Source: Streptomyces sp. NBC_00425
GTDB taxonomy: Bacteria; Actinomycetota; Actinomycetes; Streptomycetales; Streptomycetaceae
Direction of reading: 5' to 3'
Length of the DNA: 64,000 nucleotides
Assembly: GCF_036030735.1 (NCBI RefSeq)
Contig: NZ_CP107928.1
Span: 9,548,001 to 9,612,000, forward strand
Shown here: piece after piece, positions 32,885 to 63,774 of the stretch
How the letters are laid out: each line of letters begins with the position of its first letter
Position numbering within the stretch: position 1 is the stretch's first letter
Position numbers and translations under genes: made by a program
The notes under the pieces: model-generated
Databases searched by the model: none
Told to the model about the DNA's origin: nothing
Seen by the model: the letters and a program-made list of their open reading frames with translations, nothing else

Positions 32885-32920
32885 TAACATAGAACAATTA
32901 GATAGATGAATAGCCTAGTA
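32885..32920. promoter_or_regulatory. AT-rich operator-like island at the catabolic cluster edge
   Basis: TAACATAGAACAATTAGATA continues as GATGAATAGCCTAGTA, about 70 percent A+T in GC-rich surroundings, 17 bases before the first acyl-CoA dehydrogenase start. The reverse complement contains GGCTATT, a half of the dyad at 55027-55051. It probably holds the promoter and a regulator site. Confidence 0.45.
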
Positions 32921-32936
32921 TTGGCGAGGAGTGGCC

Positions 32937-34088
32937 GTGGACTTCGGGCTGACCGATGAGCAGGAGCTGTTGCGTGCGACGGCTCGGAAGTTCGTCGCCG
33001 ACGTGTGCCCGGCCGAGAAGGCCAAGCAGTGGGACGAGGAGGGCGTCCTACCGCCCGAGCTGTCTCGAGGCATGGCCGAGCTGGGGTGGTTCTCGCTCCC
33101 GTTCGCCGAGGACGAAGGCGGTGACGGTGGCGGACCGCTGGAGCTCATCCTCATCGCCGAGGAGCTCGGGAGGGCCAGCTTCGACGTGGCCATGTGCTAT
33201 ATCGGGGTGCTCATCCCCGGCATCACGGTGTTCCGCTGGGGCAGCGAGGCGCAGCGCGACTTCATCCGCGCGCAGGTGATGACGGGCCGCCACCGGCTCG
33301 CCGTCGGCCTCAGCGAGCCGGACAGCGGGTCCGACGCCGCGGCGCTGCGGACCACCGCCGAGGACCACGGGGACTACTTCCTCGTCCGCGGCCAGAAGGC
33401 TTGGTGCACGGGTGGCGGCCTGCCCGACACGACCATCGCCACGTACGTGCGGACCGGGCCCCGCGAGCCCAAGCACGGCGGCATCAGCCTGCTGCTCGTC
33501 GATCCCGCGACCGAGGGCGTCGAGGTGCGCCGGACGCCGACACTGGCCCGGCACATCCTGGGCACCAACGAGGTCTTCTTCAAAGACGCCCTGGTGCCGA
33601 AGGAGAACCTCGTCGGCCCGCGTGACGAGGGCTGGAAGGTGATGCTCTCCAACATCGAGCTGGAGAAGGTGATCATCAGCGGGGGCTATCTGGGCGCCGC
33701 GCAGGCCACGCTCGACGAGATGCTCGACTACGCCCGTAACCGGCATGCCTTCGGCCGGCCGATCGGTAACTTCCAGGCTCTCGCGCACGCCATGGCCGAC
33801 CTGCAGACCGAGATCGACTCCGCCCGGCTGCTCGCCTACCGGGCGGCCTGGCAGCTCGCCCAGGGCGAGCCCTGCACACGGGAGGGGTCGATGGCGAAGC
33901 TGAAGGGCTCGGAGACGTACGTGGCGGCTGCCCGGCTCGGGATGCAGGTCTGCGCGGGGCACGGTTTCTCGACGGAGAGCGTGATGAGCTTCCGGTACCG
34001 GGAGTCGATCGTGGCCACGATCTCTGGGGGCACGAGTCAGATCCAGCGCAACGGCATAGCCCGCAGCATGGGGCTCAGGTCGTACTGA
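32937..34088 (+). CDS. Acyl-CoA dehydrogenase
   Basis: The 383-residue FAD enzyme has the family blocks VGLSEPDSGSDAAAL (FAD/substrate loop), YARNRHAFGRPIGNFQALAH and the C-terminal CAGHGFSTESVMSF-RYRE with a Glu in the usual catalytic-base position, then GGTSQIQRNGIARSMGL. It introduces an alpha,beta double bond into an acyl-CoA and passes electrons to ETF, encoded at 39389-41175. GTG at 32937 is chosen because AGGAG (32927-32931) is 5 bases upstream; a GTG at 32931 overlaps that box. Confidence 0.9.
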   Translation: MDFGLTDEQELLRATARKFVADVCPAEKAKQWDEEGVLPPELSRGMAELGWFSLPFAEDEGGDGGGPLELILIAEELGRASFDVAMCYIGVLIPGITVFRWGSEAQRDFIRAQVMTGRHRLAVGLSEPDSGSDAAALRTTAEDHGDYFLVRGQKAWCTGGGLPDTTIATYVRTGPREPKHGGISLLLVDPATEGVEVRRTPTLARHILGTNEVFFKDALVPKENLVGPRDEGWKVMLSNIELEKVIISGGYLGAAQATLDEMLDYARNRHAFGRPIGNFQALAHAMADLQTEIDSARLLAYRAAWQLAQGEPCTREGSMAKLKGSETYVAAARLGMQVCAGHGFSTESVMSFRYRESIVATISGGTSQIQRNGIARSMGLRSY

Positions 34089-34109
34089 GCTCCGCTGCCC
34101 CAACCTGGT

Positions 34110-34667
34110 TCAGGTCCTACTGGTCCCGCCGCCCCGGCCTGCCGGTTGTTCCTGCCGAGCCTCGCCGTCCTGACCGGCCAGCCACTCCTGGTGCCGTGCG
34201 AAGTGGCCCCGGTCCCGGGTCACCCAGATCCCGGAGGCCCGGGCCAGCACGGCCCGCGTCGGCAGCAGCACCATCTCGCCGGCGATGTACCAGCGCCTGC
34301 CCTCCCGCTTCTCCACCCAGGCCCGGACCTCCAGCGGCCGCTGCACCGGCACCGGCTTCACGAAGCTCACGGTCAGTTCCGCCGTCACGCTCAACACCCG
34401 GTGCAGCAGCGGAAGATGGCCGAGGCAGTCGTCCAGTACGGCCGCGGTCCAGCCGCCGTGCGCCACGTCGGGCCCGCCCTCCTGGTCTCGCGGGCAGGAC
34501 AGCTCGAACCGCGCCGACCCGTCCTCGTCGAGCCGCTCCTGCTCCACTCCCAGCCGGCAGGAACCGGCGGCGCGGCACGCCCCGCACAGGGCCACTCCGC
34601 CGGGAGTCCGGGGCGGCTCCTGGAAGTCGACCCCTGCCCAGGGCCCGGTCGGTGGCGTGGTGGACAT
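34110..34667 (-). CDS. PaaI-type hotdog-fold thioesterase
   Basis: The 185-residue protein has the hotdog motif PDVAHGGWTAAVLDDCLGHL (HGG and a catalytic Asp) and the strand pattern VTAELTVSFVKPVPVQRPLE with RRWYIAGEM. An N-terminal extension contains CGACRAAGSCRLG, possibly a metal site. It should hydrolyse stalled acyl-CoAs in the pathway. The ATG at 34665-34667 with AGGAG upstream is preferred; an in-frame ATG 22 codons earlier has none. It converges on the acyl-CoA dehydrogenase gene. Confidence 0.8.
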   Translation of the reverse strand: MSTTPPTGPWAGVDFQEPPRTPGGVALCGACRAAGSCRLGVEQERLDEDGSARFELSCPRDQEGGPDVAHGGWTAAVLDDCLGHLPLLHRVLSVTAELTVSFVKPVPVQRPLEVRAWVEKREGRRWYIAGEMVLLPTRAVLARASGIWVTRDRGHFARHQEWLAGQDGEARQEQPAGRGGGTSRT

Positions 34668-34703
34668 GGTGTGACTCCTCTTGTCGGGCCTCGGAGTGGC
34701 AGG

Positions 34704-34744
34704 CATGGGGTCCAGACATGGGGGTCCAGACATGGGGGCTCAGA
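34704..34744. repeat. Three tandem 13-14 bp repeats between genes
   Basis: Copies CATGGGGTCCAGA, CATGGGGGTCCAGA and CATGGGGGCTCAGA lie in the 102-base gap between the thioesterase start and the LLM oxidoreductase stop. The units differ by one base in length, so they are not coding. Role unknown. Confidence 0.7.
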
Positions 34745-34769
34745 GATCGGGGTGTCGGAGAGCGAGGTG

Positions 34770-35744
34770 TCAGACATCGGCGAGCAGCGGGCGCAGCTTC
34801 CCGGCGATGAGCTGAACCTGCCGGGCCACCATGTCCTCGGGCATCCCGGCCAGCGAGGCCCACAGGAACACGCCCTCCACCGGCAACCCTGCCACGTACG
34901 CCTTGACGGCGTCGGCGACGTCCTGCGGGGTGCCGTACAGGAACTGACCGACACCGGTCGCGCTGAGCCCCGTCTGCCGCCACTTCTCGGGGTCGATGGG
35001 GCCAGGGAGCGGCTGGTCGGTGCCCTCCACCATGTACCGGCGGTAGCTGTCCCACTGGTAGGCCAGATGCTGGCGCACCACCGGCCAGTCGCCGTCGGGG
35101 TCCTCGGTGACGAACGTGGTGAACGAGCCCTGCATACGGCCCGCCGCCACGTCGTACCCGCTCTCGGCGAGCCCTTCCCGGTACGGCGTCAGCAGGGCCG
35201 GGTTGAGCGACAGCAGCCCCGTGCCGAGCCGGCCGGCCCGGCGGGCGCCCTGAGGGCCCTGGTAGCCGAGCCAGATCGGGAGCGGATCCTGGAGCGGGCC
35301 CGGGGTGACCAGGGATTCGGCCCACAGGCCGCGGATCTCCCGTACCCGCTGATCGGTGGTGGTGTAGCGCTTGGCGAGATCGGCGTCGTACAGCCGGTAC
35401 TCGGGCACCCGGTAGCCGGTGCCGAGCCCGAGGTCCAGGCGGCCGTCGCTGATGATGTCCACGAGCGCGGCCTGTTCGGCGATCTCGGGGGCCGCGTGCA
35501 GCGGTGCGGGGATGACCGCGGTGCCCAGGCGGACCCGGCGGGTGCGGGCGGCGGCCGCGGCCGCCATGGTGAGCGGCTGGGGGAGATAGCCGTCCTCGAA
35601 GCTGTGGTGTTCGGAGAACCAGACCGAGTCGAGGCCGAGGCGGTCCGCCTCCTCGCACATCTCCAGGGCGAACCCGTACACCCGTGACCAGCTCTGCCGC
35701 CATGGCGGCGGGTTGCGCAGGTCGAAGTAGATGCCCACCTTCAC
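34770..35744 (-). CDS. LLM-class (luciferase-like) oxidoreductase, probably F420/FMN
   Basis: The 324-residue TIM-barrel protein reads MKVGIYFDLRNP, DSVWFSEHHSFEDGYLP, RRVRLGTAVIPAPLHAAPEI, DIISDGRLDLGLGTGYRVPE and YGTPQDVADAVKAYVAGLPV. The WFSEHHS and LGTGY segments are typical of the F420/FMN-dependent monooxygenase/dehydrogenase family. Such enzymes occur in actinobacterial steroid and terpene pathways. The stop of the upstream fusion gene (35741) overlaps its start by four bases, so they are coupled. Substrate unknown. Confidence 0.85.
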   Translation of the reverse strand: MKVGIYFDLRNPPPWRQSWSRVYGFALEMCEEADRLGLDSVWFSEHHSFEDGYLPQPLTMAAAAAARTRRVRLGTAVIPAPLHAAPEIAEQAALVDIISDGRLDLGLGTGYRVPEYRLYDADLAKRYTTTDQRVREIRGLWAESLVTPGPLQDPLPIWLGYQGPQGARRAGRLGTGLLSLNPALLTPYREGLAESGYDVAAGRMQGSFTTFVTEDPDGDWPVVRQHLAYQWDSYRRYMVEGTDQPLPGPIDPEKWRQTGLSATGVGQFLYGTPQDVADAVKAYVAGLPVEGVFLWASLAGMPEDMVARQVQLIAGKLRPLLADV

Positions 35745-38188
35745 GAGGAACCTCCTGCTGCTGTGTTGTCGGCCAGCCGGATCGTCGCGTGCGCGACGGC
35801 CACTCCGTCCCCGGGTGCCAGGAGCCGTACCGGGCGCAGTTCGAGCGCCTCGATCTCGGGGTGGTCCTCGACCATCGCCGAGATGCGCAGGACGGTCTCC
35901 TCCAGGGCCGCGAGGTCCACCCCCGGGCCCCCGGTCCTGCCGTCCAGCAGCGGGGCGGCCCGCAGCGAGCGGACCATCTCGCGGGCGTCGCGGTCGCTGA
36001 GGGGGGTGACGCGGTGGGCGACGTCCGCCATGAGGTCGGCGTAGTCCCCGGTGAGGCCGAAGGCGACCACCGGGCCGAAGACCGGGTCGGCACGGACCGT
36101 GAGGAACGCGTCGGGTCCGGGGCCCGGTTCACTCCCGTGTACGGCGATCCCGTACGAGGCGAGCAGTTCGGCGGCGACCGCCGCGGGGACCGGCCCGGGG
36201 GCACAGGCGGCGATCAGCGTGCGGGCCCGCTCGGCGTCGACTCCCGCGAGGTCGGGTACGACGCCCGCGGGGGTGCTGCGCCAGGTCTGGTAGGCCGCCG
36301 CGTGTCCGAGCGAGGTGGCAGCGGCCTCGGGGAACGTGTACGTCGGTACCACCAGGTCGCCCCTGTGCAGAAGGTCGGCGACGCCCGCACCGCCCAGGAA
36401 GCTGGCCAGCACGGGCTTGTCGGGCCGGGCCGCGGCCGCGTCGAGGATCGCCGACGCCACCTCGTCGGGCTTGTCCGCCAGCGGCGGCATGAACAGGACG
36501 ACGGCCGCGTCGATGCCGTCGTCCGCCAGAGCGGCGTCCAGCGCCTGCCGGTAGTGGGCGGCGGTGGCGGTGGGTGTCAGGTCGATCGGGTTGGAGACGT
36601 CGGCGTGGGGCGCGAGGGCCGGACGGAGCGTCTGCCGGGTGCGCTCACCGAGCGCGGGCACGCACAGGCCGCTCGCCGCGCACGCGCCGACCGTCAGAGC
36701 CGCCGGGCCGCCCGCGTTGGTGATCACGGCGACCCGGTCGCCGGGCGGGGGAGGCTGGTGGGCGAGCAGCAGGGCGACGTCGAACAGCTCTTGGAGGCTG
36801 CGGGTACGGATCACACCGGACTGGGCGAACAGCGAGCTCACGGTCGAATCGGCGTGGCCCGGATGGACCGCGACGATGGGTTTGCGCGGTGCGACCCGGC
36901 GGGCGACGCGGGCGAACCGGCGCGGATCGCCGAAGGTCTCGACGTGCAGCAGGATCACCGACGTCCCCGGGTCCTCCTCCCACCACTGGAGCAGTTCGTC
37001 GGTGGAGACGTCGACGGCGTGGCCCACCGACACGAAGCCGGAGAAGCCGAGCCGCAGCCGCCGGGCGAAGTCGAGCACCGCGAGCCCGAGCGGCCCGGAC
37101 TGGCTGGACATCGCCACCCGGCCGGGCGTCGGCAGGGCGGGCGAGAAGGTCGCGGCCAGTCGCGCCGCCGGGGTGGTGTTGACCACGCCCATGCAGTTCG
37201 GGCCCACCAGTCGCATTCCGCAGGCGCGGGCGAAACGCGCCAGCTCCAGCTCGCCGGCCCGTCCTTCGACGCCGGTCTCTCCGAAGCCCGTCGATACGAC
37301 GACCACCGCCTTGACCCCGACCTCCGCGCACTCCCTCACGACACCGGGAACGGCCTCGGCCCGTAGGGCCACCAGCGCCAGGTCCGGCGGCTCGGGCAGG
37401 TCCCGGACGCTTGCGTACGCGCGCGCCCCGGCGATCCGCTCGGCCCGCGGGTTGACGGGGAAGACGCTGCCGGCGAAGCCGCCCCGCAGCAGGTTGGCGA
37501 CGATCTCGTGACCGATCGTCAGCGGGTCGCGGTTGGCGCCGATGACGGCGACCGAGCGGGGTTCGAGCAGGGGTTTGAGCGAGCGCCGTACGGCCGTCTG
37601 CTCGCGACGCTCGGCCCGCGCCACGGCCTGGGCCTGCGGGTCGACGGCGATCTCGAAGTGGATGATCTGGCCCGGCGGACCGGCTTCCGTCCGGTAGCCG
37701 GAGCCGAGGAACACGTTGATCATCCGCGTGTTGTCGGCGAGAACGTCTGCCTCCAGCACCCGGATGCCCCGTGCTCGCGCGGCGGCGGCGATGTGCTCCA
37801 GGAGCAGCCTGCCGAACCCCTCGCTCTGGTGGTCGTCCCGGATGGTGAACGTGACCTCGGCGTGTTCCGGTTCCTCCGGGTCGCGGACGTAGCGCACCAG
37901 GCCGGCGATCTCGTCACCTGCCAGGGCGACGAGCGCCAGCTCGTTGAGGTAGTCCACGTGGGCGCCCCGCCGGATGACGTCGTCGCGGGCGCGGACCACC
38001 GGACCGAGGGAGCGGTAGGCCAGGGTGGCCCGGGACAGGGTGCCGACGAAGGCGACCAGGCGGTCGGCGTCCTCCGGCCGGATGGGCCGGACGAAGGTCG
38101 ACCGCCCCGTCCTGACGAGTCCGGGCCGTTCCAGGTCTTCGGGATATGAGGGATAGGAGGGATACGAGGGGTACGGGGGAGTGGTCAC
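35741..38188 (-). CDS. GNAT / acyl-CoA synthetase (NDP-forming) fusion with shortened ATP-grasp
   Basis: The 815-residue protein has, in order, a Tyr-Pro-Ser repeat tail (1-16), a GNAT domain (about 20-170; EGFGRLLLEHIAAAARARGI), a CoA-binding domain (about 200-320; SVAVIGANRDPLTIGHEIV), a ligase_CoA part (PNCMGVVNTTP, SSQSGPLGLAVLDFARR) and the end of an ATP-grasp domain (FGPVVAFGLTGDYADL, REMVRSLRAAPLLDG). The nucleotide-binding lobe that normally follows LLASYGIAV is missing, about 80 residues. Full-length relatives are lysine acetyltransferases (Pat-like) or ADP-forming acyl-CoA synthetases. GTG at 38186-38188 is the likely start. It may acetylate and control the CoA ligases of the cluster. 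Confidence 0.8.
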   Translation of the reverse strand: MTTPPYPSYPSYPSYPEDLERPGLVRTGRSTFVRPIRPEDADRLVAFVGTLSRATLAYRSLGPVVRARDDVIRRGAHVDYLNELALVALAGDEIAGLVRYVRDPEEPEHAEVTFTIRDDHQSEGFGRLLLEHIAAAARARGIRVLEADVLADNTRMINVFLGSGYRTEAGPPGQIIHFEIAVDPQAQAVARAERREQTAVRRSLKPLLEPRSVAVIGANRDPLTIGHEIVANLLRGGFAGSVFPVNPRAERIAGARAYASVRDLPEPPDLALVALRAEAVPGVVRECAEVGVKAVVVVSTGFGETGVEGRAGELELARFARACGMRLVGPNCMGVVNTTPAARLAATFSPALPTPGRVAMSSQSGPLGLAVLDFARRLRLGFSGFVSVGHAVDVSTDELLQWWEEDPGTSVILLHVETFGDPRRFARVARRVAPRKPIVAVHPGHADSTVSSLFAQSGVIRTRSLQELFDVALLLAHQPPPPGDRVAVITNAGGPAALTVGACAASGLCVPALGERTRQTLRPALAPHADVSNPIDLTPTATAAHYRQALDAALADDGIDAAVVLFMPPLADKPDEVASAILDAAAARPDKPVLASFLGGAGVADLLHRGDLVVPTYTFPEAAATSLGHAAAYQTWRSTPAGVVPDLAGVDAERARTLIAACAPGPVPAAVAAELLASYGIAVHGSEPGPGPDAFLTVRADPVFGPVVAFGLTGDYADLMADVAHRVTPLSDRDAREMVRSLRAAPLLDGRTGGPGVDLAALEETVLRISAMVEDHPEIEALELRPVRLLAPGDGVAVAHATIRLADNTAAGGSS
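38142..38177 (-). repeat. 9-bp repeats coding for Tyr-Pro-Ser
   Basis: Four 9-base units (GGATATGAG, GGATAGGAG, GGATACGAG, GGGTACGGG on the + strand) encode PYPSYPSYPSYPE at the N-terminus of the fusion protein. Length change here would alter only a flexible tail. Confidence 0.85.
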
Positions 38189-38211
38189 CGCAGTGGTTCC
38201 GCCGGCGCCGC

Positions 38212-39291
38212 TCAGACGGCCGCCTCCTGGGGAGTCTGCTCCGGCAGGCGGAAGAGCTCGTTGAAGGTGCCGCGGGTGACGCGCTCGCGGATGTCGTCCG
38301 GCACGCCGTCGAACAGGTCGTGGAGCGTGGACTGGGTGTGGCCGTAAGTGCCTTCCAGATGGGGGTAGTCGTCGCCCCACATCACGTTGCGGTAGCCGGT
38401 CGACTCGACGATCTCCACCGAGCTCTTGTCGTGCTGGAAGGAGGCGTACACCTGCTGCCTGATGATCTCACTGGGCAGCCGGCTCAGCTTCGGCCGGACG
38501 AACATGCCGTGCTGGCGGTAGGCCTCGTCCATCCGGTCGCCGATGGCCGGCACCCAACCCGCGCCGCCCTCCGCGATGAGGATCCTCAGGTCGGGGTGGC
38601 GGTCCAGCGCGCCGCCGGCGACCATGTGGGACACGACGCGCATGCCCGGGTAGGTGGTCTCCATGTAGTTGACGACCGCGCCGCCGGGTCCGCGGAAGAC
38701 GACGTTCTGCGCGCCGGTGCCGATGTGGAAGCCGAGCACCAGGCCCGCCCGCTCGACCGCGGTCCACAACGGCTCCCAGCGGTCCAGGGCGTATTCCTCG
38801 CCCGGTCGTGTCGAACACGGCAGGAAGACCGCCTGGAAGCCCAGTTCCGCCACCCGCTCGACCTCCGCGACCGCGTCGTTGATGTCGGCCGTCGATACGC
38901 ATGCCGTGGTGATGACGCGCTGGTTCCTGCGGAGGATCTCGTCGTGGGCCCAGTCGTTCCAGGCCCGTACCGTCTCCCGGGCGAGTTCCCGGTCGGTGAT
39001 CGACACGAGCCAGAACCCCATGGAGGGGAAGGCCAGTTGGCCCCACACGCCCTCCTGGTCGAGGTCCTTGAGCCGGACGTTCAGGTCCCAGGCGCCCGGC
39101 GGACGCATCGCGTCCATGAAGTCGCCGAGCTGGCGGTCGATGCGCTCGCCGTCGATGTAGAGCATCTCGTACTTCTCGCCGCGCTCACTGCGCGGCGCCC
39201 GTGCGCCCAGCCGGGCGGACAACCGCGCGGTCCACACGTCGGCGGGCTCCATCACGTGGGAGTCCCCGGAGTTGACCCAGATCTTCGTCAT
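38212..39291 (-). CDS. Amidohydrolase-2 (ACMSD-like) family protein
   Basis: The 359-residue TIM-barrel metalloprotein has the metal-site variant SGDSHVMEP near the N-terminus, His in LVLGFHIGTG, His in RVVSHMVAGGALDRHPDLRI and Asp in NVMWGDDYPHLEGTYG. The family covers decarboxylases and hydrolases of aromatic or ring-derived acids, and such genes accompany actinobacterial steroid/terpene catabolism. AAGGAG before the ATG at 39289-39291 sets the start. It heads a leftward operon that continues into the fusion protein, LLM and thioesterase genes. Reaction unknown. Confidence 0.85.
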   Translation of the reverse strand: MTKIWVNSGDSHVMEPADVWTARLSARLGARAPRSERGEKYEMLYIDGERIDRQLGDFMDAMRPPGAWDLNVRLKDLDQEGVWGQLAFPSMGFWLVSITDRELARETVRAWNDWAHDEILRRNQRVITTACVSTADINDAVAEVERVAELGFQAVFLPCSTRPGEEYALDRWEPLWTAVERAGLVLGFHIGTGAQNVVFRGPGGAVVNYMETTYPGMRVVSHMVAGGALDRHPDLRILIAEGGAGWVPAIGDRMDEAYRQHGMFVRPKLSRLPSEIIRQQVYASFQHDKSSVEIVESTGYRNVMWGDDYPHLEGTYGHTQSTLHDLFDGVPDDIRERVTRGTFNELFRLPEQTPQEAAV

Positions 39292-39336
39292 GACACTCCT
39301 TCGGGTCAAGGCTGCACGCATCAATGGATGCAATCA

Positions 39337-39350
39337 GTTAGCGATTTTAG
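39337..39350. promoter_or_regulatory. Operator-like site upstream of the amidohydrolase operon
   Basis: GTTAGCGATTTTAG matches GTTAGCTATTTAG of the dyad at 55027-55051 with one substitution and one extra T. It lies 46 bases upstream of the amidohydrolase start in a short AT-rich island. Confidence 0.5.
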
Positions 39351-39388: not shown

Positions 39389-40351
39389 TCAGCTCCGGCG
39401 CCGCTCGATCTCGTCCACCAGCTGCGGCAGCACCGCGAACAGGTCCCCGACCACGCCGTGGTCGGCGAGCTCGAAGATCGGTGCGTCGGCGTCCTTGTTG
39501 ACGGCGACGATGGTCTTGGACGTCTGCATGCCCGCCCGGTGCTGGATCGCGCCGGAGATGCCGGCGGCGAGGTAGAGCTGTGGGGAGACCTGGGTGCCTG
39601 TCTGGCCGACCTGGTGGCTGTGCGGGTACCAGCCCGCGTCCACGGCCGCGCGGGACGCCCCGACGGCCGCACCGAGCGCGTCCGCGACCCGTTCGATGAG
39701 GGCGAAGTTCTCGGCGCCGTTCACCCCGCGACCGCCGGAGACCACGATGTCGGCCTCGGTCAGCTCGGGCCGGTCGCCGCGCTCCCGCGGTGTGCGGGAC
39801 AGGACCCGGACGGCCTGCGAGGGCGGGCCGAAGGTGACGTCCTGCTTCTCGACGAGGGGTTCGGCGGGGGCGGCCTCGGGGGCGGTGGCGTTCGGCTTGA
39901 CCGTGATCACCGGCACGCCCTGGGTGACGCGTGCGGTGACCTGGTACGTCGCGGCGAACGCCGACTGCTCGGTGACCGGCCCCTCGGGTCCCGCGGTGAC
40001 ATCGACGGCATCGGTGATGAGTCCGGAGCCGAGCCGTAGCGCGACCCTCGCGGCGATCTCCTTGCCGTCCGGCCCGGACGGCACCAGGACCGCGGCCGGG
40101 CCGGTGCGCTCGGCGAGCTGTGTGAGGGCGTCCACGGCCGGGGTGACGAGGTACTCGTCGACCTCGGGGGCGTCCACGACATGGATCTTCTGGGCGCCGT
40201 ACCGGCCGAGAACCTCGGTCGCGCGGTCCGCGCCCGGCCCCAGGAAGACGGCCGAGGGTTCGCCCAAGCGGCGGGCCAGGGTGAGCAGTTCGAGGGTCGG
40301 CTTGCGTACGGCGCCGTCGACGTGGTCGACGAGGACGAGGATCTCGGCCAC
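39389..40351 (-). CDS. etfA: Electron transfer flavoprotein alpha subunit
   Basis: The 320-residue protein carries the ETF-alpha FAD-binding signature near the C-terminus: [40 protein letters not shown] and [20 protein letters not shown], then [15 protein letters not shown]. It forms a heterodimer with EtfB and takes electrons from acyl-CoA dehydrogenases to ETF:quinone oxidoreductase. It follows etfB by 44 bases on the same strand. A dedicated ETF within the cluster suits the six dehydrogenases here. Confidence 0.96.
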
Positions 40352-40395
40352 GGTGATGCAACTCCTTCAGGCAGGTTGTCAGGGCGGGGGCGCGG

Positions 40396-41175: not shown

Positions 41176-41204
41176 GACAGCCCCCTATGGTTGAATGAGT
41201 TCTA

Positions 41205-41216: not shown

Positions 41217-41318
41217 ATGGATCGGCGGAGCGCGAGCCCCGCGCCCCAATCCGTCGAATTGGTTGACTGATTGCGCTGATAGCTGGAAGATCTGGGCACT
41301 GAGCCGCGAGGAGGCGCC

Positions 41319-55090: not shown

Positions 55091-56581
55091 GTGGTCACGG
55101 TCGATGTGCAGCTGCACCAGGACAGAGCCGAGCACGACCTGCCGCAGCCGCGTCTGGTCATCGGCGGCAAGGACGTCACCGACACCAGCGGCGGCCTCTA
55201 CGAGCACCGCAACCCGGCCACCGGCCTCATCCAGGCCTACATCCCGCTGGCCGGGCCCACCGAGGTGGACCAGGCGGTCGCGGCCGCCCGCCAGGCCTTC
55301 GAGGTATGGGGCACCATGCGCCCCGCCGAGCGCCGCCGGCTGCTCACCCGCTTCGCCGGGCTGCTGCGCGACCACATCCCCGACTTCGCGGCGATCTGCC
55401 CGCTGGAGAACGGCGTGTGCATCGGCGGCTGGGCGGAGAACGTCGGACCGCACGTCGCCGAGTGGACCGAGTACTACGCGGGCTGGGCCGACAAGATCGA
55501 AGGCATGGTCGGCGCGGCCTACAGCCCGCACGAGAACGTCGAGTACACCATCGCCGAGCCGTACGGCGTCATCGGCCACATCATCACCTGGAACTCTCCC
55601 GCACTGTCCCTGGCGATGAAAGTCCCCCCGTCGCTCGCCGCCGGCAACACCGTGGTCATCAAACCGGCCGAGTCCACACCGTTCTCCGCGCTGCTCTTCG
55701 CCGACCTGGCCCGCGAAGCGGGCATCCCCGACGGCGTCGTCAACGTCGTCACCGGGCTCGGCGACGCCGGATCGGCCCTGGTCACCCACCCCGGCATCGA
55801 CAAGATCTCCTTCACCGGCGGTCCCGCCACCGCGCGCCGCATCATGGCCGACGCGGCCCTCAGCCTCAAGCCGGTCGTGTTCGAGCTCGGCGGCAAGTCC
55901 GCCAACCTGCTCTTCTCCGACACCGACCTGGACACCGTCGTCCCCTACTGCGCCGCCTTCGCCATGAGCAACACCGGTCAGGGCTGCGCGCTGCCCACCC
56001 GGCTGCTGGTGGAGCGCCCGATCTACGACGAGGTCATCGCCCGGGTCACCGGGGTGGTCGCCCACCTGCCTGTGGGCGACCCGCTCGACCCCTCGACGTA
56101 CATCGGACCCCTCATCAACGAAGCCGCCCGCGAGCGCGTCCGGGGCGTGGTCGACAAGGCGGTCGAAGACGGTGCGGGGCGGCTCGTGTACGGCGGCGAA
56201 CACCTCGCGTCCGACGGCTACTTCGTCTCGCCGACCGTCTTCGCGGACGTCGACAACCGCAGCGATCTCGCCCAGCAAGAGATCTTCGGCCCGGTCCTGG
56301 CCATCACCCCGTTCGACACCGAGGACCAGGCCGTCGCCCTGGCCAACGACAGCGAGTACGGCCTGTCCGCTTACATCCAGTCCCGTGACATCGCACGCGT
56401 CAACCGGCTGGTGCCGCGCCTGAAGGCCGGGACGGTCTACGTCAATCCCGGCCCGAATCCCATTACTTCGCCTGCCACACCGTTCGGCGGCGTCGGCATG
56501 AGCGGGTTCGGGCGGGAAGGCGGCAAGGCCGGTCTGGACGAGTTCATCAACGTCAAGGGTGTGGGTATCGGCCGCGTCTGA
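55091..56581 (+). CDS. NAD(P)-dependent aldehyde dehydrogenase
   Basis: The 496-residue protein has Asn in IGHIITWNSPALSLAMKVPP, Glu in VVFELGGKSANLLFSDTDLD and the catalytic Cys in SNTGQGCALPTRLLVERP, followed by EIFGPVLAITPF. It oxidises an aldehyde to the acid, perhaps one released by a retro-aldol side-chain cleavage elsewhere in the pathway. AGGAGG lies 6 bases before the GTG at 55091. First gene of a rightward operon with ligase, thiolase and DUF35 genes. Confidence 0.93.
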   Translation: MVTVDVQLHQDRAEHDLPQPRLVIGGKDVTDTSGGLYEHRNPATGLIQAYIPLAGPTEVDQAVAAARQAFEVWGTMRPAERRRLLTRFAGLLRDHIPDFAAICPLENGVCIGGWAENVGPHVAEWTEYYAGWADKIEGMVGAAYSPHENVEYTIAEPYGVIGHIITWNSPALSLAMKVPPSLAAGNTVVIKPAESTPFSALLFADLAREAGIPDGVVNVVTGLGDAGSALVTHPGIDKISFTGGPATARRIMADAALSLKPVVFELGGKSANLLFSDTDLDTVVPYCAAFAMSNTGQGCALPTRLLVERPIYDEVIARVTGVVAHLPVGDPLDPSTYIGPLINEAARERVRGVVDKAVEDGAGRLVYGGEHLASDGYFVSPTVFADVDNRSDLAQQEIFGPVLAITPFDTEDQAVALANDSEYGLSAYIQSRDIARVNRLVPRLKAGTVYVNPGPNPITSPATPFGGVGMSGFGREGGKAGLDEFINVKGVGIGRV

Positions 56582-56618
56582 CGGCCCCCACCTCTCCCGA
56601 GCCTTTGGAGCCAACAGC

Positions 56619-58193
56619 ATGCATTCCGCCCGTCGCCTGACGTTCGGCGACATCATCCGTGAGCACCGAAGGTCCTTCCCCGACGGCGTCGCCCTCGTCG
56701 ACGGCGACGTCCGGCTGACCTGGCCCCAGTTGGACGAGCGCACCAACCGACTCGCAGGCGCCCTCGCGGACGCGGGCGTCGGCTCCGGCGACCGCATCCT
56801 GTGGCTGGGCCAGAACTCCTTCCGGATCTGGGAGCTCCTCGGCGCCGCAGCGAAGATCGGCGCCATGGTCTGCCCCGGCTACTGGCGCTGGGCAGCGCCC
56901 GAGATGGCCTTCGCCGTCGAGGACTTCGACCCCGCGGTCGTCGTCTGGCAGGACGAGGAGATCGGTGACACGGTCGCCAAGGCCCGGGCCGAACTCGGCG
57001 ACGACCACCGGGCGTTGTGGCTGCGTCACGACTCCGAGGGCGCCGACTCCTACGAGGCCTTCCTGGCCTCCGGCTCGGCGGAGGACCCAGTCGCCGAGGT
57101 CGACCCCGAGGCGGCCCTGCTGGTCATCTACACCGCGGCGATCTCCGGCCGGCAGTCCGGCTCGATGCTCTCGCACCGCAACCTGCTCGCCATGGGCGCG
57201 AGCGCCGCCTGGATGGGGGACATCGGCACGGAGACCTCCTTCCTCGGCGCCGGTCCCATGTTCCACATCGGCAACTACCAGTTCTGGGGCGTCCCGGCCT
57301 TCGTCCACGGCGGCAAGAACGTGGTCGTGCGCCGCGTGGTCGCCGAGGAACTGCTCCCGCTCCTGGCGGGCGAGAAGTGCACCCACGCCTACCTGATGCC
57401 CCCGACCATCGCGCAGCTCGTCGCCCTCAACCGCGAGGCCGGCCACGATCTCTCCCACCTGCGCGCGAGTGTCGCCGCACAGCTCTGGGAGGGCACCGTC
57501 CCCACCGATCAGAGCCGCTTCACCCGCAACGGCGGCGGCATGGGCCGCGGGTACGGGCAGACCGAGGTGACCGGCTTCGCGGTGACCGGCGCCTACGGCG
57601 ACGCGGGCACCGGCAACGCGGGACGGCCCGGCCCCTTCACCGCCGTACGCATCCTGGACGGCGCCGGCCAGGAGTGCGCGGTGGGCGAGGCCGGCGAGAT
57701 CTGTGTCCGCGGCGACCTCGTGCATCTCGGCTACTGGAACCGGCCCGAGACCAACGAGGAACGCTTCCGCTTCGGCTGGTGGCACACCACCGACCTCGGC
57801 CGGCGAGAGCCCGACGGCACGATCAGCTTCCTCGGGACGACGACCCGCATGCTCAAGTCCGCGGCCGAGAACATCTTCCCGGCCGAGGTGGAGAACTGCA
57901 TCGAGTCCCATCCCGCGGTGAAGGAAGCCGCCGTGATCGGTGTGCCCAACGAGCGCTGGGCGCAGGACGTCAAGGCCGTAGTGGTGCTCCGGCCGGGCGC
58001 CGGGCCGGTCACCGCAGCGGACGTCATCGAGCACTGCCGGGCGCGGATCGCCTCGTACAAGAAGCCGAAGACGGTCGAGTTCGTAGAGGTCCTGCCGCGA
58101 ACCAAGGACTACGCCAAGGACTACGAGGTGCTCGACGAGCGCTTCGGCGGGGGCGGCTACCCCGGCGGCGACACGCTCGGCGCGGGGCGGTGA
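56619..58193 (+). CDS. Acyl-CoA synthetase with a variant phosphate loop
   Basis: The 524-residue adenylate-forming enzyme has the A8 hinge-type and C-terminal motifs (WWHTTDLGRREPDGTISFLG, KSAAENIFPAEVENCIESHP, IASYKKPKTVEFVEVLPRTK), but the usual TSGTTGxPKG loop reads YTAAISGRQSGSMLSHRNL (171-189). Similar loops are known to me from steroid-linked FadD17/FadD19-like ligases. It probably activates a steroid- or terpene-type carboxylate. The ATG at 56619 has TTGGAG upstream. Confidence 0.87.
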   Translation: MHSARRLTFGDIIREHRRSFPDGVALVDGDVRLTWPQLDERTNRLAGALADAGVGSGDRILWLGQNSFRIWELLGAAAKIGAMVCPGYWRWAAPEMAFAVEDFDPAVVVWQDEEIGDTVAKARAELGDDHRALWLRHDSEGADSYEAFLASGSAEDPVAEVDPEAALLVIYTAAISGRQSGSMLSHRNLLAMGASAAWMGDIGTETSFLGAGPMFHIGNYQFWGVPAFVHGGKNVVVRRVVAEELLPLLAGEKCTHAYLMPPTIAQLVALNREAGHDLSHLRASVAAQLWEGTVPTDQSRFTRNGGGMGRGYGQTEVTGFAVTGAYGDAGTGNAGRPGPFTAVRILDGAGQECAVGEAGEICVRGDLVHLGYWNRPETNEERFRFGWWHTTDLGRREPDGTISFLGTTTRMLKSAAENIFPAEVENCIESHPAVKEAAVIGVPNERWAQDVKAVVVLRPGAGPVTAADVIEHCRARIASYKKPKTVEFVEVLPRTKDYAKDYEVLDERFGGGGYPGGDTLGAGR

Positions 58194-58197
58194 CGTC

Positions 58198-59349
58198 GTG
58201 AACGGCCGCCAACCCGTGGTCGTCGGAGTGTACGCCACCGAACAGGCGCTGACACTGCCCGACCGCGACGCCATGGACCTCGCCCTCGAAGCGGTACGCG
58301 GCGCGATCGCGGACGCCGGACTGACCCCGGCCGACGTAGACGGCGCCCAGGTCGACTGGCCCGGCCCCGGTGGCGTACCCGGCGAGGGCAGCTCCTGGGC
58401 GCGGATGCTCGGCCGGGACCTGCGCTGGACCAGCGACTCGATGCTCGACAACGCCGGCTCACGGGGCCTGCTGAAGGCGGCCGCCGCCATCAGCGCCGGA
58501 TACGCGGACACCGTCGTCCTCGGCGGCTGCAAGCTGGTCTCGCGCGGAGCCGGTCCCGTGGGAGCCGGGGTGCCCCTGGAGTTCGCCGACGTGTGGGGCA
58601 GCTATGTCGTCGCCCAGTTCGCGCTGGTGGCGGCACGGCACATGCACGAGTACGGCACGACCTCCCGCCAGCTCGCCGAGGTCGCCGCCACGATCCGCAA
58701 CAACGGCAGCAGCAACCCGGAGGCGATGATGCACGGGCGCGGGCCCTACACCGCCGACGACGTCCTCGCCTCCCGGATGGTGGCCACGCCCTTCCACCTG
58801 CTGGACTGCTGCATCGTCGGCGAGGGCGGCGCCGCACTCGTGGTCACCACCGCCGAACGGGCCCGCGACCTGCCCCACCCGCCCGTCGCCGTCCTCGGCG
58901 GCGGCATGGAGTACCACCAGGCCGCGTACGCCAACCCGGCTCTGTACCGGGAAGTCGGCCAACTCGGCCGGGACGCGGCCACCCGCGCCTACGCGATGGC
59001 CGGCGTCGGTCCCCACGACGTGGACGTGTTTTCCCTGTACGACCCCAACTCCTTCGAGGTCATACGGCAGTTGGAAGCACTCGGTCTGTGCGGGGAGGGC
59101 GAGGGCGGACCGTTCGCGGCCAGCGGAGCCATCGCCGTCGGCGGCAAGCATCCCGTCAATCCCGACGGGGGCTGCCTGTCCTATGCCTGGAACGGGACCC
59201 AGCAGATGACGCTCAAAGTCGTCGAGGCGGTAAGGCAGTTGCGCGGCACCGCCGTGCACCAGGTCGAGGGTGCCGAGCTCGCCGTCGTGGGGAACGCCGG
59301 GTCCGGCGCCCAGCACTACGAGATGAGCCTGCTGGGGAGAACGCGATGA
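58198..59349 (+). CDS. Thiolase-like protein without the nucleophilic Cys (Ltp2-type)
   Basis: The 383-residue thiolase-fold protein reads SMLDNAGSRGLLKAAAAISA where active thiolases have Cys, so no acyl-Cys can form. It keeps AVGGKHPVNPDGGCLSYAWN and VVGNAGSGAQHYEMS. The cholesterol-pathway aldolase Ltp2 is a Cys-less member of this fold that does a retro-aldol cleavage together with a DUF35 partner. The coupled DUF35 gene downstream (ATGA) fits that model. GTG at 58198 is 4 bases after the ligase stop. Confidence 0.85.
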   Translation: MNGRQPVVVGVYATEQALTLPDRDAMDLALEAVRGAIADAGLTPADVDGAQVDWPGPGGVPGEGSSWARMLGRDLRWTSDSMLDNAGSRGLLKAAAAISAGYADTVVLGGCKLVSRGAGPVGAGVPLEFADVWGSYVVAQFALVAARHMHEYGTTSRQLAEVAATIRNNGSSNPEAMMHGRGPYTADDVLASRMVATPFHLLDCCIVGEGGAALVVTTAERARDLPHPPVAVLGGGMEYHQAAYANPALYREVGQLGRDAATRAYAMAGVGPHDVDVFSLYDPNSFEVIRQLEALGLCGEGEGGPFAASGAIAVGGKHPVNPDGGCLSYAWNGTQQMTLKVVEAVRQLRGTAVHQVEGAELAVVGNAGSGAQHYEMSLLGRTR

Positions 59350-59741
59350 GCCGGCCCGTACCCGTCCCGACCGAACTGTCCCAACCGTTCTGGGAGGCGG
59401 CCCGACGCGGCGACCTGGTCGTCCCCTACTGCCCGAGCTGTGACCTGCGCTTCTTCGTCCCCGAGCCCGCCTGCCCCGGATGCCTGGCCCCAGGCTGGCA
59501 CTACGCTCCGAGCGCCGGCCGGGGGACCGTCTACTCGGTGACCGTGGTGCACCGCGCACCCGGCCCCGGCTTCGACACGCCCTTCGCGCTCGCCGTGATC
59601 GACCTCGACGACGGCGCCACCCTGCTCTCCCACGTGGACGCCGGCGATCCGGACGCCGTCGCCATCGGCATGCGCGTGCGCGTCGACTTCCGGCCCCTCA
59701 CGGACGAGATCACGCTGCCCTGTTTTGTTCCGGAGCGTTGA
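59346..59741 (+). CDS. DUF35 Zn-ribbon/OB-fold protein, aldolase partner
   Basis: The 131-residue protein has Cys29, Cys32, Cys43 and Cys46 (YCPSC-N10-CPGC) and an OB fold (GRGTVYSVTVVHRAPGPGFD, TPFALAVIDLDDGATLLSHV). Cys positions are identical to those of the DUF35 protein at 44288-44746. Its ATG overlaps the stop of the Cys-less thiolase-like gene, as expected for a complex subunit. Confidence 0.88.
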   Translation: MSRPVPVPTELSQPFWEAARRGDLVVPYCPSCDLRFFVPEPACPGCLAPGWHYAPSAGRGTVYSVTVVHRAPGPGFDTPFALAVIDLDDGATLLSHVDAGDPDAVAIGMRVRVDFRPLTDEITLPCFVPER

Positions 59742-59777: not shown

Positions 59778-59809
59778 ACTCGATAACCTAGTCAAATCAG
59801 TTATCTAGT
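59778..59809. promoter_or_regulatory. Inverted repeat upstream of the GntR gene
   Basis: ACT-N-GATAAC (59778-59787) and GTTATC-N-AGT (59800-59809) form a dyad with a 12-base spacer. TAACCTAG and TTATCTAG also make a direct repeat. TAACCTA is shared with the reverse of the 55027-55051 dyad. It lies about 70 bases before the likely GntR start, so autoregulation is plausible. Confidence 0.6.
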
Positions 59810-59878
59810 AGAGTGAACCGTCTACCCGGTGCTCGGGCCCTGTCCCGCACCTGTGGGCGGACGGAGGTGGGCCCGGTG

Positions 59879-60664: not shown

Positions 60665-61690
60665 TCACTCGGGTGTGCGCAGCTCCTGCACGACGGGCTC
60701 CCACACCTCGGCGTCGATCTCGTACGCCGTGTAGAAGGACACCCGGTCGACCAATGCCCCGTACCGGCGCCGGATCTCGCCCGCGACCCGCTCCGGTTCC
60801 GCCACGACCGCGAAGGTGTGCAGCACCTCGTCGTCGACGAGGCCGCTCATCGCCTCCCACTTGTCCTCGCGCCGGGACGTCGACAACGCGTGCAGCTCGT
60901 TCCCGAGTTCGCCCCAGCCGTGCAGCTCCAGCACCCCCCGGTAGGCGGGTGTGCTGCCGTAGAAGGCGATCTGAGCGCGGGTGCCGTCGATCGCGCGGGC
61001 CATCTCCTCCTCCGTGCGGCCGGTCGCCGTCAGCAGCAGATGAGAGACGGCGAAGTCGGCCCGCGTACGGCCGGACGCGGCCAGCCCCGCCTCCACGGTC
61101 GGCAGGGTCACCTCCCGCAGGTACCGCTCGGTGGTGAAGCCGTGCGCGAGGAGCCCGTCTGCGACCTCGCCCGCCACTTCGGTCATCGCCTGGCCGACCG
61201 CGGCCACGAACACCTTGGGCGCGCCGCCGAGGGCGGGCGGTGGCGAGAAGAAGGGCGACATCAGGGTGTGCGAGTAGAAGTCGCCGCGGAAGTCGAGCTT
61301 CTCGCCCTCGTTCCAGGCGGCCCAGATCGCGTGCAGTGCGCTCACGTACTCCCGCATGCGGGCCGCGGGCCGGCTCCACGGCATGTCGAAGCGCCGCTCG
61401 ATGTGCGGCTTGATCTGGCTGCCGAGTCCGAGCGAGAACCGTCCGCCGGCGTAGGTCTGCAGGTCGTGCGCGGTGTACGCGAGCTGCATGGGGGAGCGGG
61501 CGAAGGCGACCGCGATGGCCGTGCCGACCTCCAGCCGGTCGGTGTGCTCGGCCGCCAGCACCAGCGGCAGAAAGGGATCGTGCTTGGACTCCGACGCCCA
61601 CAGGCCGTCGTAGCCGGCCTTCTCGTGGTGCCGGGCCTCCTCCACGACCTCCGTGGTGCTCCACACGTTGAGCTTGCCGTCGACCTTCAT
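60665..61690 (-). CDS. LLM-class oxidoreductase, probably F420-dependent
   Basis: The 341-residue TIM-barrel protein reads EEARHHEKAGYDGLWASESK, TDRLEVGTAIAVAFARSPMQ, LQTYAGGRFSLGLGSQIKPH and VFVAAVGQAMTEVAGEVADG, typical of F420-dependent LLM enzymes. Its start overlaps the stop of the acyl-CoA dehydrogenase by four bases, so they are coupled. A redox role on a pathway intermediate is likely. It converges on the GntR gene with a 3-base gap. Confidence 0.87.
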   Translation of the reverse strand: MKVDGKLNVWSTTEVVEEARHHEKAGYDGLWASESKHDPFLPLVLAAEHTDRLEVGTAIAVAFARSPMQLAYTAHDLQTYAGGRFSLGLGSQIKPHIERRFDMPWSRPAARMREYVSALHAIWAAWNEGEKLDFRGDFYSHTLMSPFFSPPPALGGAPKVFVAAVGQAMTEVAGEVADGLLAHGFTTERYLREVTLPTVEAGLAASGRTRADFAVSHLLLTATGRTEEEMARAIDGTRAQIAFYGSTPAYRGVLELHGWGELGNELHALSTSRREDKWEAMSGLVDDEVLHTFAVVAEPERVAGEIRRRYGALVDRVSFYTAYEIDAEVWEPVVQELRTPE

Positions 61691-62886
61691 GCCGCTCCCT
61701 TGTCCCGTTCCGTTTCCATGCCGATGCGCCGTGCGAGCAGCTCCCGGTGGTACGCCGGGTCGCCGAACAGCAGCTGTGACGTCTTGGCCCGCTTCAGATA
61801 CAGGTGGGCCGGATGCTCCCAGGTGAAGCCGATGCCGCCGTGCACCTGGATGTTCTCCTGCGTCGCCTGTACGCACGCGTCGGAACAGAACGCCTTGGCC
61901 AGACTCGCCACGGCGGGCAGCTCCGGGTCGGCGTTCTCGGTCTTCACGGTGTTCTCGGTGTTCTCGGCGTTCTCGGCGTTCTCGGCGGCGAGCAGGGCGT
62001 AGTGGGCGGCGGCGCGCGCCGACTCCACCTCCAGCAGGACGTCGGCCAGCAGGTGCTTGACGGCCTGGAAGGAACCGATGGGCCGCCCGAACTGGTGGCG
62101 CACCTTGGCGTACTCCACCGCCATGTCGAGCGCGCGGGAGGCCACCCCGACCTGCTCGGCGGCCAGCGCCACCGCGGCCCGGTCGAGCACCTCCGAGACC
62201 AGGTCCCAGCCGTCGCCGTGCGTACGCAGCCGGGTCGCCGGTACGTCCTGGTAGTCGAGGCGGGCCTGGCGTCGCGTCGGGTCCATCGTGGGCAGCGGCG
62301 CACGGGTCAGGCCGGCCGCGTCGCCCTCCACGCAGAACACCCCGATGCCGTCGCCGATGCCGTCGCCGGTGCGGGCGACGGTGAGGACGACATCGGCGGA
62401 GGCACCGTCCAGGACGAACATCTTGTGCCCGGTGAGCAGCCAACTCCCTTTGCTCTCACGGGCATTGAGCCTGACCCCTGCCGGGTCCCAGCGTGCGGAG
62501 CCCTCGGTCAGGGCGAGTGTCCCGACGAGTTCACCGGAGGCCAGGCCCGGCAAGAGGCGCTTGCGGGCGTCCTCGTCGGCGCAGCGCAGCAGCGTGGTCG
62601 TCGCCAGCACGGCCGAGGACAGGAACGGCGCACACACCAACGCGCGGCCCATCTCCTCCATCACCACGCCCACTTCGACCGGCCCGCACCCGGCGCCCCC
62701 GTACTCCTCGGGGACCGCCAGGCCCTGCAGCCCGAGCTCCCTCCCCATCCGGAGCCACAGCGCCCGGTCGAAGCCCTCGGGTGTCTCCATCAGGCGACGC
62801 GTCTCGCTCTCGGGTGAGGTGCGGGCCAGGAACGCCCTTACGGTGCGCCCCAGTTCCTCCTGCTCCTCGCTGAACGCGAAGTCCAT
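61687..62886 (-). CDS. Acyl-CoA dehydrogenase with a Glu-Asn-Ala/Thr repeat loop
   Basis: The 399-residue protein is paralogous to the one at 47173-48288: GLAVPEEYGGAGCGPVEVGV, KVRHQFGRPIGSFQAVKHLL and ENIQVHGGIGFTWEHPAHLY with the catalytic-position Glu. A loop between LLAA and DPELPAVASL is expanded by ENAENAENTENTVKTENA, encoded by 9-bp repeats. The FAD loop is degenerate (ALTEGSARWDPAGVRL), so it may need a partner subunit, which is not adjacent here. Confidence 0.88.
   Translation of the reverse strand: MDFAFSEEQEELGRTVRAFLARTSPESETRRLMETPEGFDRALWLRMGRELGLQGLAVPEEYGGAGCGPVEVGVVMEEMGRALVCAPFLSSAVLATTTLLRCADEDARKRLLPGLASGELVGTLALTEGSARWDPAGVRLNARESKGSWLLTGHKMFVLDGASADVVLTVARTGDGIGDGIGVFCVEGDAAGLTRAPLPTMDPTRRQARLDYQDVPATRLRTHGDGWDLVSEVLDRAAVALAAEQVGVASRALDMAVEYAKVRHQFGRPIGSFQAVKHLLADVLLEVESARAAAHYALLAAENAENAENTENTVKTENADPELPAVASLAKAFCSDACVQATQENIQVHGGIGFTWEHPAHLYLKRAKTSQLLFGDPAYHRELLARRIGMETERDKGAA
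61931..61984 (-). repeat. Six 9-bp tandem repeats in a dehydrogenase gene
   Basis: Six units of GCGTTCTCG/GTGTTCTCG (one variant GTCTTCACG) encode the Glu-Asn-Ala/Thr repeat. The units keep the frame. Confidence 0.92.
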
Positions 62887-62906
62887 GTCTCAGCCCTCTC
62901 CGGGTC

Positions 62907-63746
62907 TCAGCCGTCTCCGGCGGTCCGGCGACGGGCGCGGGACGCGATGATCTTCTCGACGACGGCGATGTGGTCCGGCGAGTGCATGGTCTCCCGCTCG
63001 GCGAGCAGGGCGGGTTCGAGCACGGTGGCGAGCGCCTGCTCCAGGTGCAGGTTCACCGCGCGCTTGGTCTCGCGCAGCGCCTGTGCGGGTAGGGCGGCCA
63101 GCCGTCCGGCGAGGTCCATGGCCTCGTCCAGGAGCTTGTCCTTGGGCACGGCGAGGTTGGCGATGCCCAGCCGGACCGCCTCTTCGGCGCTCACCCGGTC
63201 GCCGAGGAACAGCAGTTCCTTCGCGCGGGTCAGACCGACCAGCAACGGCAGGACGAGAGCACCGCCGTCACCGGCGACGAGCCCGACCTGGACGTGCGGG
63301 TCGGCGAGATGGGCATCGTCGGCGATCAGGACGAGGTCGCTCAGCAGAGCCAGGCTGCATCCCAGGCCCACCGCGGGCCCGTTGACGGCCGCGATCACCG
63401 GCAGCGGGCAGCGCACCATGCCGGTGATGATCCGCCGCGCCTCGTCCACGTTGCGTTCGCGGAAGGCGCGGTCGTGCTGCACCCGGGTCATGATGTCGAA
63501 GTCGCCCCCGGCGCTGAACGCCCGGCCGCGCCCGGTGAGGACGACCACCCGGGCCTCCGGGTCGGCGGCGAGGGAATCCCAGAGGGACGCGAGCGCGGAG
63601 TGCAGCTCCTCGCTCATCGAGTTGAGCTGGTCGGGCCGGTTCAGCTCGATGAGCCGGATCGGGCCGACAGCCGTCACCACCAGGTCGGTCATCTCCACCG
63701 CCATCAGTTCATCCATCAGCTCATCCATCAGCCAGGAACGAATCAT
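62907..63746 (-). CDS. Crotonase-family protein lacking both hydratase Glu
   Basis: The protein (up to 279 residues) has GRAFSAGGDFDIMTRVQHDR and NGPAVGLGCSLALLSDLVLI, then ADDAHLADPHVQVGLVAGDG. The residues aligned with the two catalytic Glu are Ser (GCSLA) and His (DPHVQ). It keeps the oxyanion hole, so a different crotonase reaction (hydrolase, isomerase, C-C cleavage) is likely. The N-terminus MDELMDELMAVEM is repetitive; start may be 63746, 63704 or 63692. The 63746 ATG lies just after an AT-rich promoter and could be leaderless. Confidence 0.82.
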   Translation of the reverse strand: MIRSWLMDELMDELMAVEMTDLVVTAVGPIRLIELNRPDQLNSMSEELHSALASLWDSLAADPEARVVVLTGRGRAFSAGGDFDIMTRVQHDRAFRERNVDEARRIITGMVRCPLPVIAAVNGPAVGLGCSLALLSDLVLIADDAHLADPHVQVGLVAGDGGALVLPLLVGLTRAKELLFLGDRVSAEEAVRLGIANLAVPKDKLLDEAMDLAGRLAALPAQALRETKRAVNLHLEQALATVLEPALLAERETMHSPDHIAVVEKIIASRARRRTAGDG

Positions 63747-63757
63747 TAGAGTTGAAT

Positions 63758-63774
63758 GCTATAACTAATTAAGC
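63758..63774. promoter_or_regulatory. AT-rich operator-like site in the last divergent gap
   Basis: GCTATAACTAATTAAGC lies between two divergent crotonase genes. Its reverse, GCTTAATTAGTTATAGC, resembles GCTTAATAGGTTAGCTA of the 55027-55051 dyad. Confidence 0.5.

Follow-up and report, generated by a model that had tools for sequence, protein, structure and literature searches.

A probable shared palindromic operator in a Streptomyces catabolic gene cluster and two GntR/FCD paralogues as its likely binders

The chromosome of Streptomyces sp. NBC_00425 (9.8 Mb, NZ_CP107928.1) carries, within the 64,000-nucleotide stretch analyzed here (positions 9,548,001-9,612,000; the window), a catabolic cluster that begins at about 32.9 kb and encodes acyl-CoA dehydrogenases, hydratases, thiolases, CoA ligases, electron transfer flavoprotein (ETF) subunits and monooxygenases. 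An earlier note on this DNA pointed to seven short AT-rich islands between the genes of this cluster and proposed that they share one dyad, mark a single regulon and are bound by the product of a GntR-type gene at 59879. The locus raises the question of whether the islands hold a common operator and, if so, which protein reads it. The data described below favor, with a probability of roughly 0.8, islands that are operators of one local regulon bound by two paralogous FadR-type regulators, GntR1 and GntR2. Their mode of action is less certain than this assignment of operator to regulator.

A motif shared by the AT-rich islands

The seven islands and the strings quoted for them were located at the positions reported. 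All of them precede a gene start, as had been claimed, with the qualification that the island at 59778 lies upstream of the regulator gene itself rather than of a catabolic gene. With AT islands defined as 25-bp windows containing at most nine G+C, the interval from 32 to 64 kb holds eight, seven of which span at least 38 bp; these are exactly the seven named earlier. Because they constitute the complete set of that length in the interval, the set was not picked. Judged by a background of 20 segments of 20 kb (400 kb) from the same genome, 1.28 such islands would be expected per 32 kb (Poisson P about 4e-4).

Counting shared dyads gave little: the best 4-mer dyad was present in three of the seven regions and equalled by 14 of 60 shuffles, and the best 3-mer dyad in five of seven (3 of 60 shuffles did as well). 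This called for likelihood models. In a two-strand model with a first-order background, the motif likelihood on the seven islands exceeded that of all 40 dinucleotide shuffles at each of the widths 8, 10, 12, 16 and 20, and that of all 100 seven-island control sets at widths 10, 16 and 20. The control sets overlap, as 39 islands in a 400-kb sample of the chromosome were available to draw them from. With a palindrome of width 16 imposed, the islands reached 38.7 with the motif AAttAGtTAaCTaaTT, compared with 22.9 +- 2.1 for controls (maximum 27.6; 32 sets, pool of 43). When each island was held out in turn at this width, all seven scored 16.1-23.5, and none of 43 control islands exceeded 11.3. 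Shuffles, control islands and leave-one-out agree with the earlier note that the islands share a motif.

A 16-bp palindrome, AATnAGTTAACTnATT, describes the motif best. The motif is common to all seven islands, and the 25-bp odd dyad from which it had first been described represents one variant rather than the consensus. If only the seven islands are considered, widths 16 and 17 surpass their controls to the same degree (both z 7.4), and width 24 does so more (z 12.9). The odd dyad was set aside as the consensus on other grounds. In a 13-site set, width 16 gave z 19.9 versus 9.9 for width 17, with the motif AATtAGtTAaCTaATT, a comparison that is partly circular because six of these sites were chosen by the matrix. 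In addition, near-perfect even palindromes occur in other genomes (ATTGAGTTAACTGATT in G014 and AATGAGTTAACTCAAT in G068). A 9-bp direct-repeat reading was considered and dropped without formal test. The palindrome is degenerate, with half-site frequencies of 0.76 (G), only 0.50 (T) and 0.96 (T); the base preceding GT is A (0.70), G (0.16), C (0.12) or T (0.01). Motifs of width 24 also score well when the whole width, rather than each flanking box, is scored.

Distribution and conservation of the sites

With the window islands and their orthologues as training set, a palindrome matrix was built and used to scan 98 kb (the window plus 34 kb downstream) and the 400-kb same-genome sample, in which the best score was 10.2. 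Twenty matches exceed this value, the two weakest (10.9 and 11.1) barely so, and all fall within 32885-91347, in coordinates extended past the window end (Table 1). Up to 32 kb, the window contains no match above background. Nineteen of the 20 are intergenic by our own gene picks, and the remaining one falls right at the beginning of an open reading frame (ORF) that was called mechanically. Half of the matches lie beyond the window end, at the starts of genes, a second GntR/FCD gene among them. One motif and one local regulon, as proposed earlier, are therefore well supported computationally, with the amendment that the sites continue to about 91.3 kb. Centres of the main operators are located some 16-77 nt upstream of the nearest start codon, where some of the gene starts are approximations.

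Table 1. Predicted operators and gene units of the cluster (window coordinates, continued past 64,000 for downstream features; scores are those of the palindrome matrix)
Feature	Position	Strand	Context	Score or basis
Operator AATTAGATAGATGAAT	32896..32911		centre 27 nt upstream of acyl-CoA dehydrogenase start 32931	24.5; in 5/5 aligned genomes
Weak second match	32885			11.1
Operator AATCAGTTAGCGATTT	39332..39347		~49 nt upstream of PtmU3-like gene (ATG ~39291, minus)	23.9
Operator TAATAGTTAACTATAT	41203..41218		upstream of etfB (41175, minus)	27.2
Operator AATTGGTTGACTGATT	41257..41272		upstream of PaaK-like ligase (41319, plus)	20.0
Operator TATCGTATAACTACTT	53794..53809		divergent gap 53760(-)/53834(+)	20.2
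Operator AATAGGTTAGCTATTT	55032..55047		upstream of aldehyde dehydrogenase-FadD-thiolase-DUF35 operon	23.8
Weaker second match	59777-59792		upstream of GntR1	10.9
Operator AATCAGTTATCTAGTA	59795..59810		upstream of GntR1	24.2
Operator AATGCTATAACTAATT	63755..63770		divergent gap 63746(-)/63813(+)	24.0
Downstream match	64890		upstream of GH1 glycosidase	weaker, 14.9
Downstream match	67703		hydratase/dehydrogenase divergent gap	
Downstream matches	72647 and 72651 (overlapping), 72713 (~100 nt out)		upstream of CaiB-type gene	
Downstream match	78891		upstream of second amidohydrolase-fold gene	
Downstream matches	79773, 79885		GntR2 gene and its divergent hydratase	
Downstream match	83019		dehydrogenase/SDR gap	
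Downstream match	91347		branched-chain ABC transporter	
Acyl-CoA dehydrogenase	32931..34088	+		family scans
PtmU3-like amidohydrolase-fold protein, acyl-CoA synthetase (ADP-forming type), LLM monooxygenase, 4HBT thioesterase	34110..39291	-		operon assumed from gene order
etfB-etfA, ETF genes	39389..41175	-		family scans
PaaK-like ligase, SDR, SCP2-type thiolase, tandem acyl-CoA dehydrogenases	41319..48288	+		operon assumed
SDR, enoyl-CoA hydratase, CaiB-type CoA transferase, SDR, DoxX, acyl-CoA dehydrogenase	48367..53760	-		operon assumed
Acyl-CoA dehydrogenase	53834..54988	+		family scans
Aldehyde dehydrogenase, FadD-type ligase, Ltp2-like thiolase/aldolase, ChsH2-like DUF35	55091..59741	+		operon assumed
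GntR1, GntR helix-turn-helix + FCD regulator, 260 aa	59879..60661	+	proposed binder	Pfam
Enoyl-CoA hydratase, acyl-CoA dehydrogenase, LLM monooxygenase	60665..63746	-		family scans
GntR2	chromosome 9,626,963-9,627,697; L049:14957-15760	-	proposed binder	GntR helix-turn-helix + FCD

One of these sites, at 41257-41272, is an eighth clear match in the window that was missing from the earlier list. It is one of two places in the entire 9.8 Mb genome with at most two mismatches, and it is kept in six of six genomes except for a single C/T difference.

Alignment of homologous clusters, a check that the earlier note had proposed, shows that the island sites are retained in relatives. GCTAACTGATT at the 39332 operator and ATATAGTTAACTATTAG at the 41203 operator are each invariant in six of six genomes. 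Some 40 bp around 53792 is nearly invariant in all 20 aligned sequences, AATAGGTTA[GT]CTATTT is found at the 55032 operator in 26 of 26, and the AATTAGTTA core at 63755 is likewise present in 26 of 26, several of which end just past it. The flanks drift while the 53792 block and the 55027 and 63758 cores remain invariant or nearly so. The full alignment, which comprises 37 sequences, includes at least two repeats (G011 = L026 and G122 = L036).

The motif is also largely confined to the cluster. Across the whole chromosome, 12 places match AATNAGTTAACTNATT with at most three mismatches, compared with three for the reversed pattern; nine are inside a 52 kb cluster, and the three outside it have matrix scores of 6.9, 11.6 and 15.1. 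This distribution bears on an alternative account, in which the islands would be ordinary AT-rich promoters of the sigma-70 type and the motif a promoter element. At least one island does contain plausible promoter hexamers (TTGACT-17-TAGCTA, 55016-55044). However, AT islands elsewhere in the same genome lack the motif (0 of 100 sets, 0 of 43 islands), and the motif is a palindrome with nine of its 12 places in one cluster, which makes this account highly improbable.

Among 150 Streptomyces genomes, 26 contain a match with at most two mismatches: all eight in which a GntR relative was found at E <= 1e-40, and 18 of the remaining 142. The hypergeometric P of 3e-7 is optimistic, because six of the eight positive genomes share one inherited cluster. 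Together the eight hold 19 such places, of which 17 lie no more than about 70 kb from a GntR relative; the reversed-pattern control gives 1. The 142 others hold 21 (control, 50). GntR1 occurs at 86% identity or more in six of the 150 genomes, indicating that the cluster is carried by a minority; named records with a GntR protein at least 87% identical are all Streptomyces.

Two GntR/FCD paralogues as candidate binders

GntR1 combines a GntR and an FCD domain (Pfam, 8.2e-18 and 5.6e-22), and its start codon agrees with the alignment start of its relatives. Within the window it is, as had been stated, the only regulator of the cluster, but GntR2, a second GntR/FCD gene 57% identical to it, lies about 15 kb beyond the window end. 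Both genes have sites at their own promoters (59795 for GntR1, 79773 and 79885 for GntR2), and autoregulation through such a site is common in FadR-type regulators. The own-promoter copy noted earlier for GntR1 is real here but not general, being found in 11 of the 37 aligned sequences: in 22, GntR1 comes directly after DUF35 and is itself the last gene of the aldehyde dehydrogenase operon, and four more distant sequences differ. The interval with promoter and operator between DUF35 and GntR1 (59742-59879) is present here and in ten other sequences, nine of which have an extra ~4 kb between the two genes (L017-L020, L022, L023, L030, L035 and G140).

Several observations connect the sites to these proteins. 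Nearly all motif-bearing relatives have the same recognition helix segment as GntR1 and GntR2, SRPTLREAFR[VI]LE, and motif-negative relatives of 41-44% identity differ in it. A scan of about +-1.5 kb around each of the 30 listed FCD matches of the genome with a 20-wide matrix gave 28.5 for GntR1 and 22.9 for GntR2, against a maximum of 15.5 among the other 28. Clusters around GntR proteins of 75-80% identity contain several sites each in four of four records, namely L041 (Streptosporangiaceae), L045 (Nocardiopsis), L044 (Actinomadura) and L042 (Streptomyces). Co-occurrence, the shared helix and the 28 other FCD genes as controls indicate that GntR1 likely binds the sites.

Sites at both GntR promoters would also be seen if the GntR genes were mere targets of a single regulon whose binder is another regulator encoded elsewhere, and the lack of a canonical FadR-type TKGT box in the operator points the same way. 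A MarR-type gene at 31209-31718 (minus) adjoins the cluster. This gene was set aside as the regulator because no counterpart was found in the related stretches, although in four genomes these reach beyond that edge of the cluster by only ~3-10 kb. None of the cluster ORFs put through family scans turned out to be another regulator, 83811-85088, 86178-88544 and those past 95 kb being among the ORFs left out. The sites accompany the GntR group outside Streptomyces, and they are found in genome G091, whose GntR2 has no detected cluster genes within +-10 kb. Control by a different protein is thus unlikely. At the cluster edge, the MarR gene overlaps the start of a divergent glyoxalase-like ORF.

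A number of results weigh against GntR1 and GntR2 as the binders of these sites, in addition to the non-canonical operator and the shared ancestry of six of the eight positive genomes. The hydratase/MaoC/ligase unit from 73261 on has no match within 500 nt of its called start. With a 12-wide matrix, the control FCD gene that had reached 15.5 (L154) scored 17.9, close to the 18.8 of GntR1. The only match with at most two mismatches in G091 is far from its GntR gene, though matrix sites flank that gene; one of four such places in G014 is also not near its GntR relative. In a scan of 22 GntR loci, no site was found within +-1.5 kb of GntR1 in L003-L006, where it lies inside an operon, or of four relatives of 41-44% identity. 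The same holds for L108 (50% identical), which keeps the helix segment and is near a contig end. L102 (59%) has only a weak site (14.0), with AY replacing AF in the helix segment.

In the mechanism that we favor, GntR1 and GntR2 would bind AATnAGTTAACTnATT upstream of most transcription units in ~59 kb, both regulator genes included. Without substrate, dimers on the promoters would block transcription; at 55032-55047 the operator covers the putative -10 hexamer TAGCTA. Upon substrate entry, an acyl-CoA or carboxylate intermediate would bind the FCD domains, the ligand probably being an acyl-CoA or acid of the pathway itself, and the dimers would release the DNA. Operons and regulators would then be induced together, in a regulon of more than 40 ORFs. 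Operator centres near start codons, one of them over a putative -10, fit repression by promoter occlusion and fit it better than the alternative that both proteins are activators, or that one activates and the other represses. The retention of both paralogues, side by side, in all five related clusters mapped could mean divided labour, and the extended 24-bp motif leaves room for more than one dimer. Nevertheless, the near-identical recognition helices favor a shared target set, so that a role in activation appears improbable and a redundant pair of repressors the more plausible arrangement.

A third GntR relative (48% identical) in G068:C1:11564754-11579052, near L015, has four palindromes within 15 kb, and may perhaps define a separate regulon with the same operator.

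Known regulators and the possible substrate

By its domains, GntR1 is a member of the FadR subfamily, with a predicted operator that is unusual in departing from the TKGT rule. Helix-turn-helix position 28, which we take to be R35 of FadR and have placed on the present proteins on that assumption, is Ser, Thr, Ala, Asn or Gly in the relatives shown, and Arg is absent. Arg at position 28 is said to prefer G/C in the TKGT box (PMC4494728); because Arg is also absent from the motif-negative relatives of 41-44% identity, this position does not discriminate, though it fits the missing G. In the survey of FadR-subfamily (GntR/FCD) regulons by Suvorova et al. (2015; PMC4494728), the subfamily is defined by a GntR helix-turn-helix and an FCD domain, both of which GntR1 and GntR2 possess. 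Its operators are AT-rich palindromes with a central GT-N(2-3)-AC, here GT-N2-AC with a degenerate T. Single sites serving divergent operons are a further point of likeness, and extra half-sites near the palindrome, 7-12 nt from its centre in the survey, may be another. In contrast to the subfamily, the consensus AGTTAACT has A in place of the K of TKGT, so that TKGT/ACMA boxes are lacking. The spacing is 2 nt rather than the more usual 3 nt, although groups with 2 nt are named, and many operators reside in one cluster, unlike in the surveyed regulons. Exceptions to TKGT include NanR and BioR (PMC4494728).

NanR of Escherichia coli (6on4) is the closest solved structure to GntR1 by sequence (E = 2.7e-19, residues 20-240). 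It is likewise a GntR/FCD-type regulator, but it binds (GGTATA)3 repeats and acts in a sialic acid pathway (PMC8012715), whereas the present operator is an inverted repeat without GGTATA. A pair of GntR-type regulators with one catabolic gene set is also known from Corynebacterium glutamicum, whose GntR1 and GntR2 are functionally redundant; theirs is a gluconate pathway (PMC2230225), and redundancy of the present pair is an inference. A search of the available literature found no paper joining a GntR protein with AGTTAACT and, among the matches listed, neither a GntR-controlled diterpenoid cluster in Streptomyces nor a description of this cluster.

If correct, the assignment provides a precise and testable operator-regulator pair for a large catabolic cluster found in a minority of Streptomyces. 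The matrix can retrieve pathway operons in many genomes and point to the inducer, and the pair could serve as an inducible promoter system. More generally, a FadR-type operator outside the TKGT rule would help to work out the code by which such regulators recognize DNA.

The gene content hints at the substrate. The gene at 38212-39291 (minus) is a close relative of that for PtmU3, a protein linked to platensimycin. The match to PtmU3 of Streptomyces platensis (6omp) amounts to 458 bits over 351 residues. PtmU3 is a diiron beta-hydroxylase of diterpenoid biosynthesis that accepts CoA-ligated substrates (PMC7782822), whereas its relative here sits in a catabolic cluster resembling beta-oxidation. 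This putative hydroxylase hints at catabolism of a diterpenoid or a diterpenoid-like compound and, together with the GH1 gene, makes a plant diterpenoid or glycoside a reasonable guess rather than a result. A more far-reaching picture, possible but doubtful at present, would have two sister repressors and one shared non-canonical operator govern more than 40 ORFs from about 16 operator loci, in a catabolon that serves a plant diterpenoid, such as an ent-kaurane acid or its glycoside, and has a diterpenoyl-CoA as inducer. Regulator and operator would then have travelled as a pair with catabolic genes between actinobacterial families.

Known structured RNAs were ruled out as an element of the window, in which Rfam gave no match at the gathering score. 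The thiolase and its DUF35 partner are similar to 6ok1, a complex of lipid-transfer protein and ChsH2, and a second, more distant amidohydrolase-fold gene is located at L049:13665-14846.

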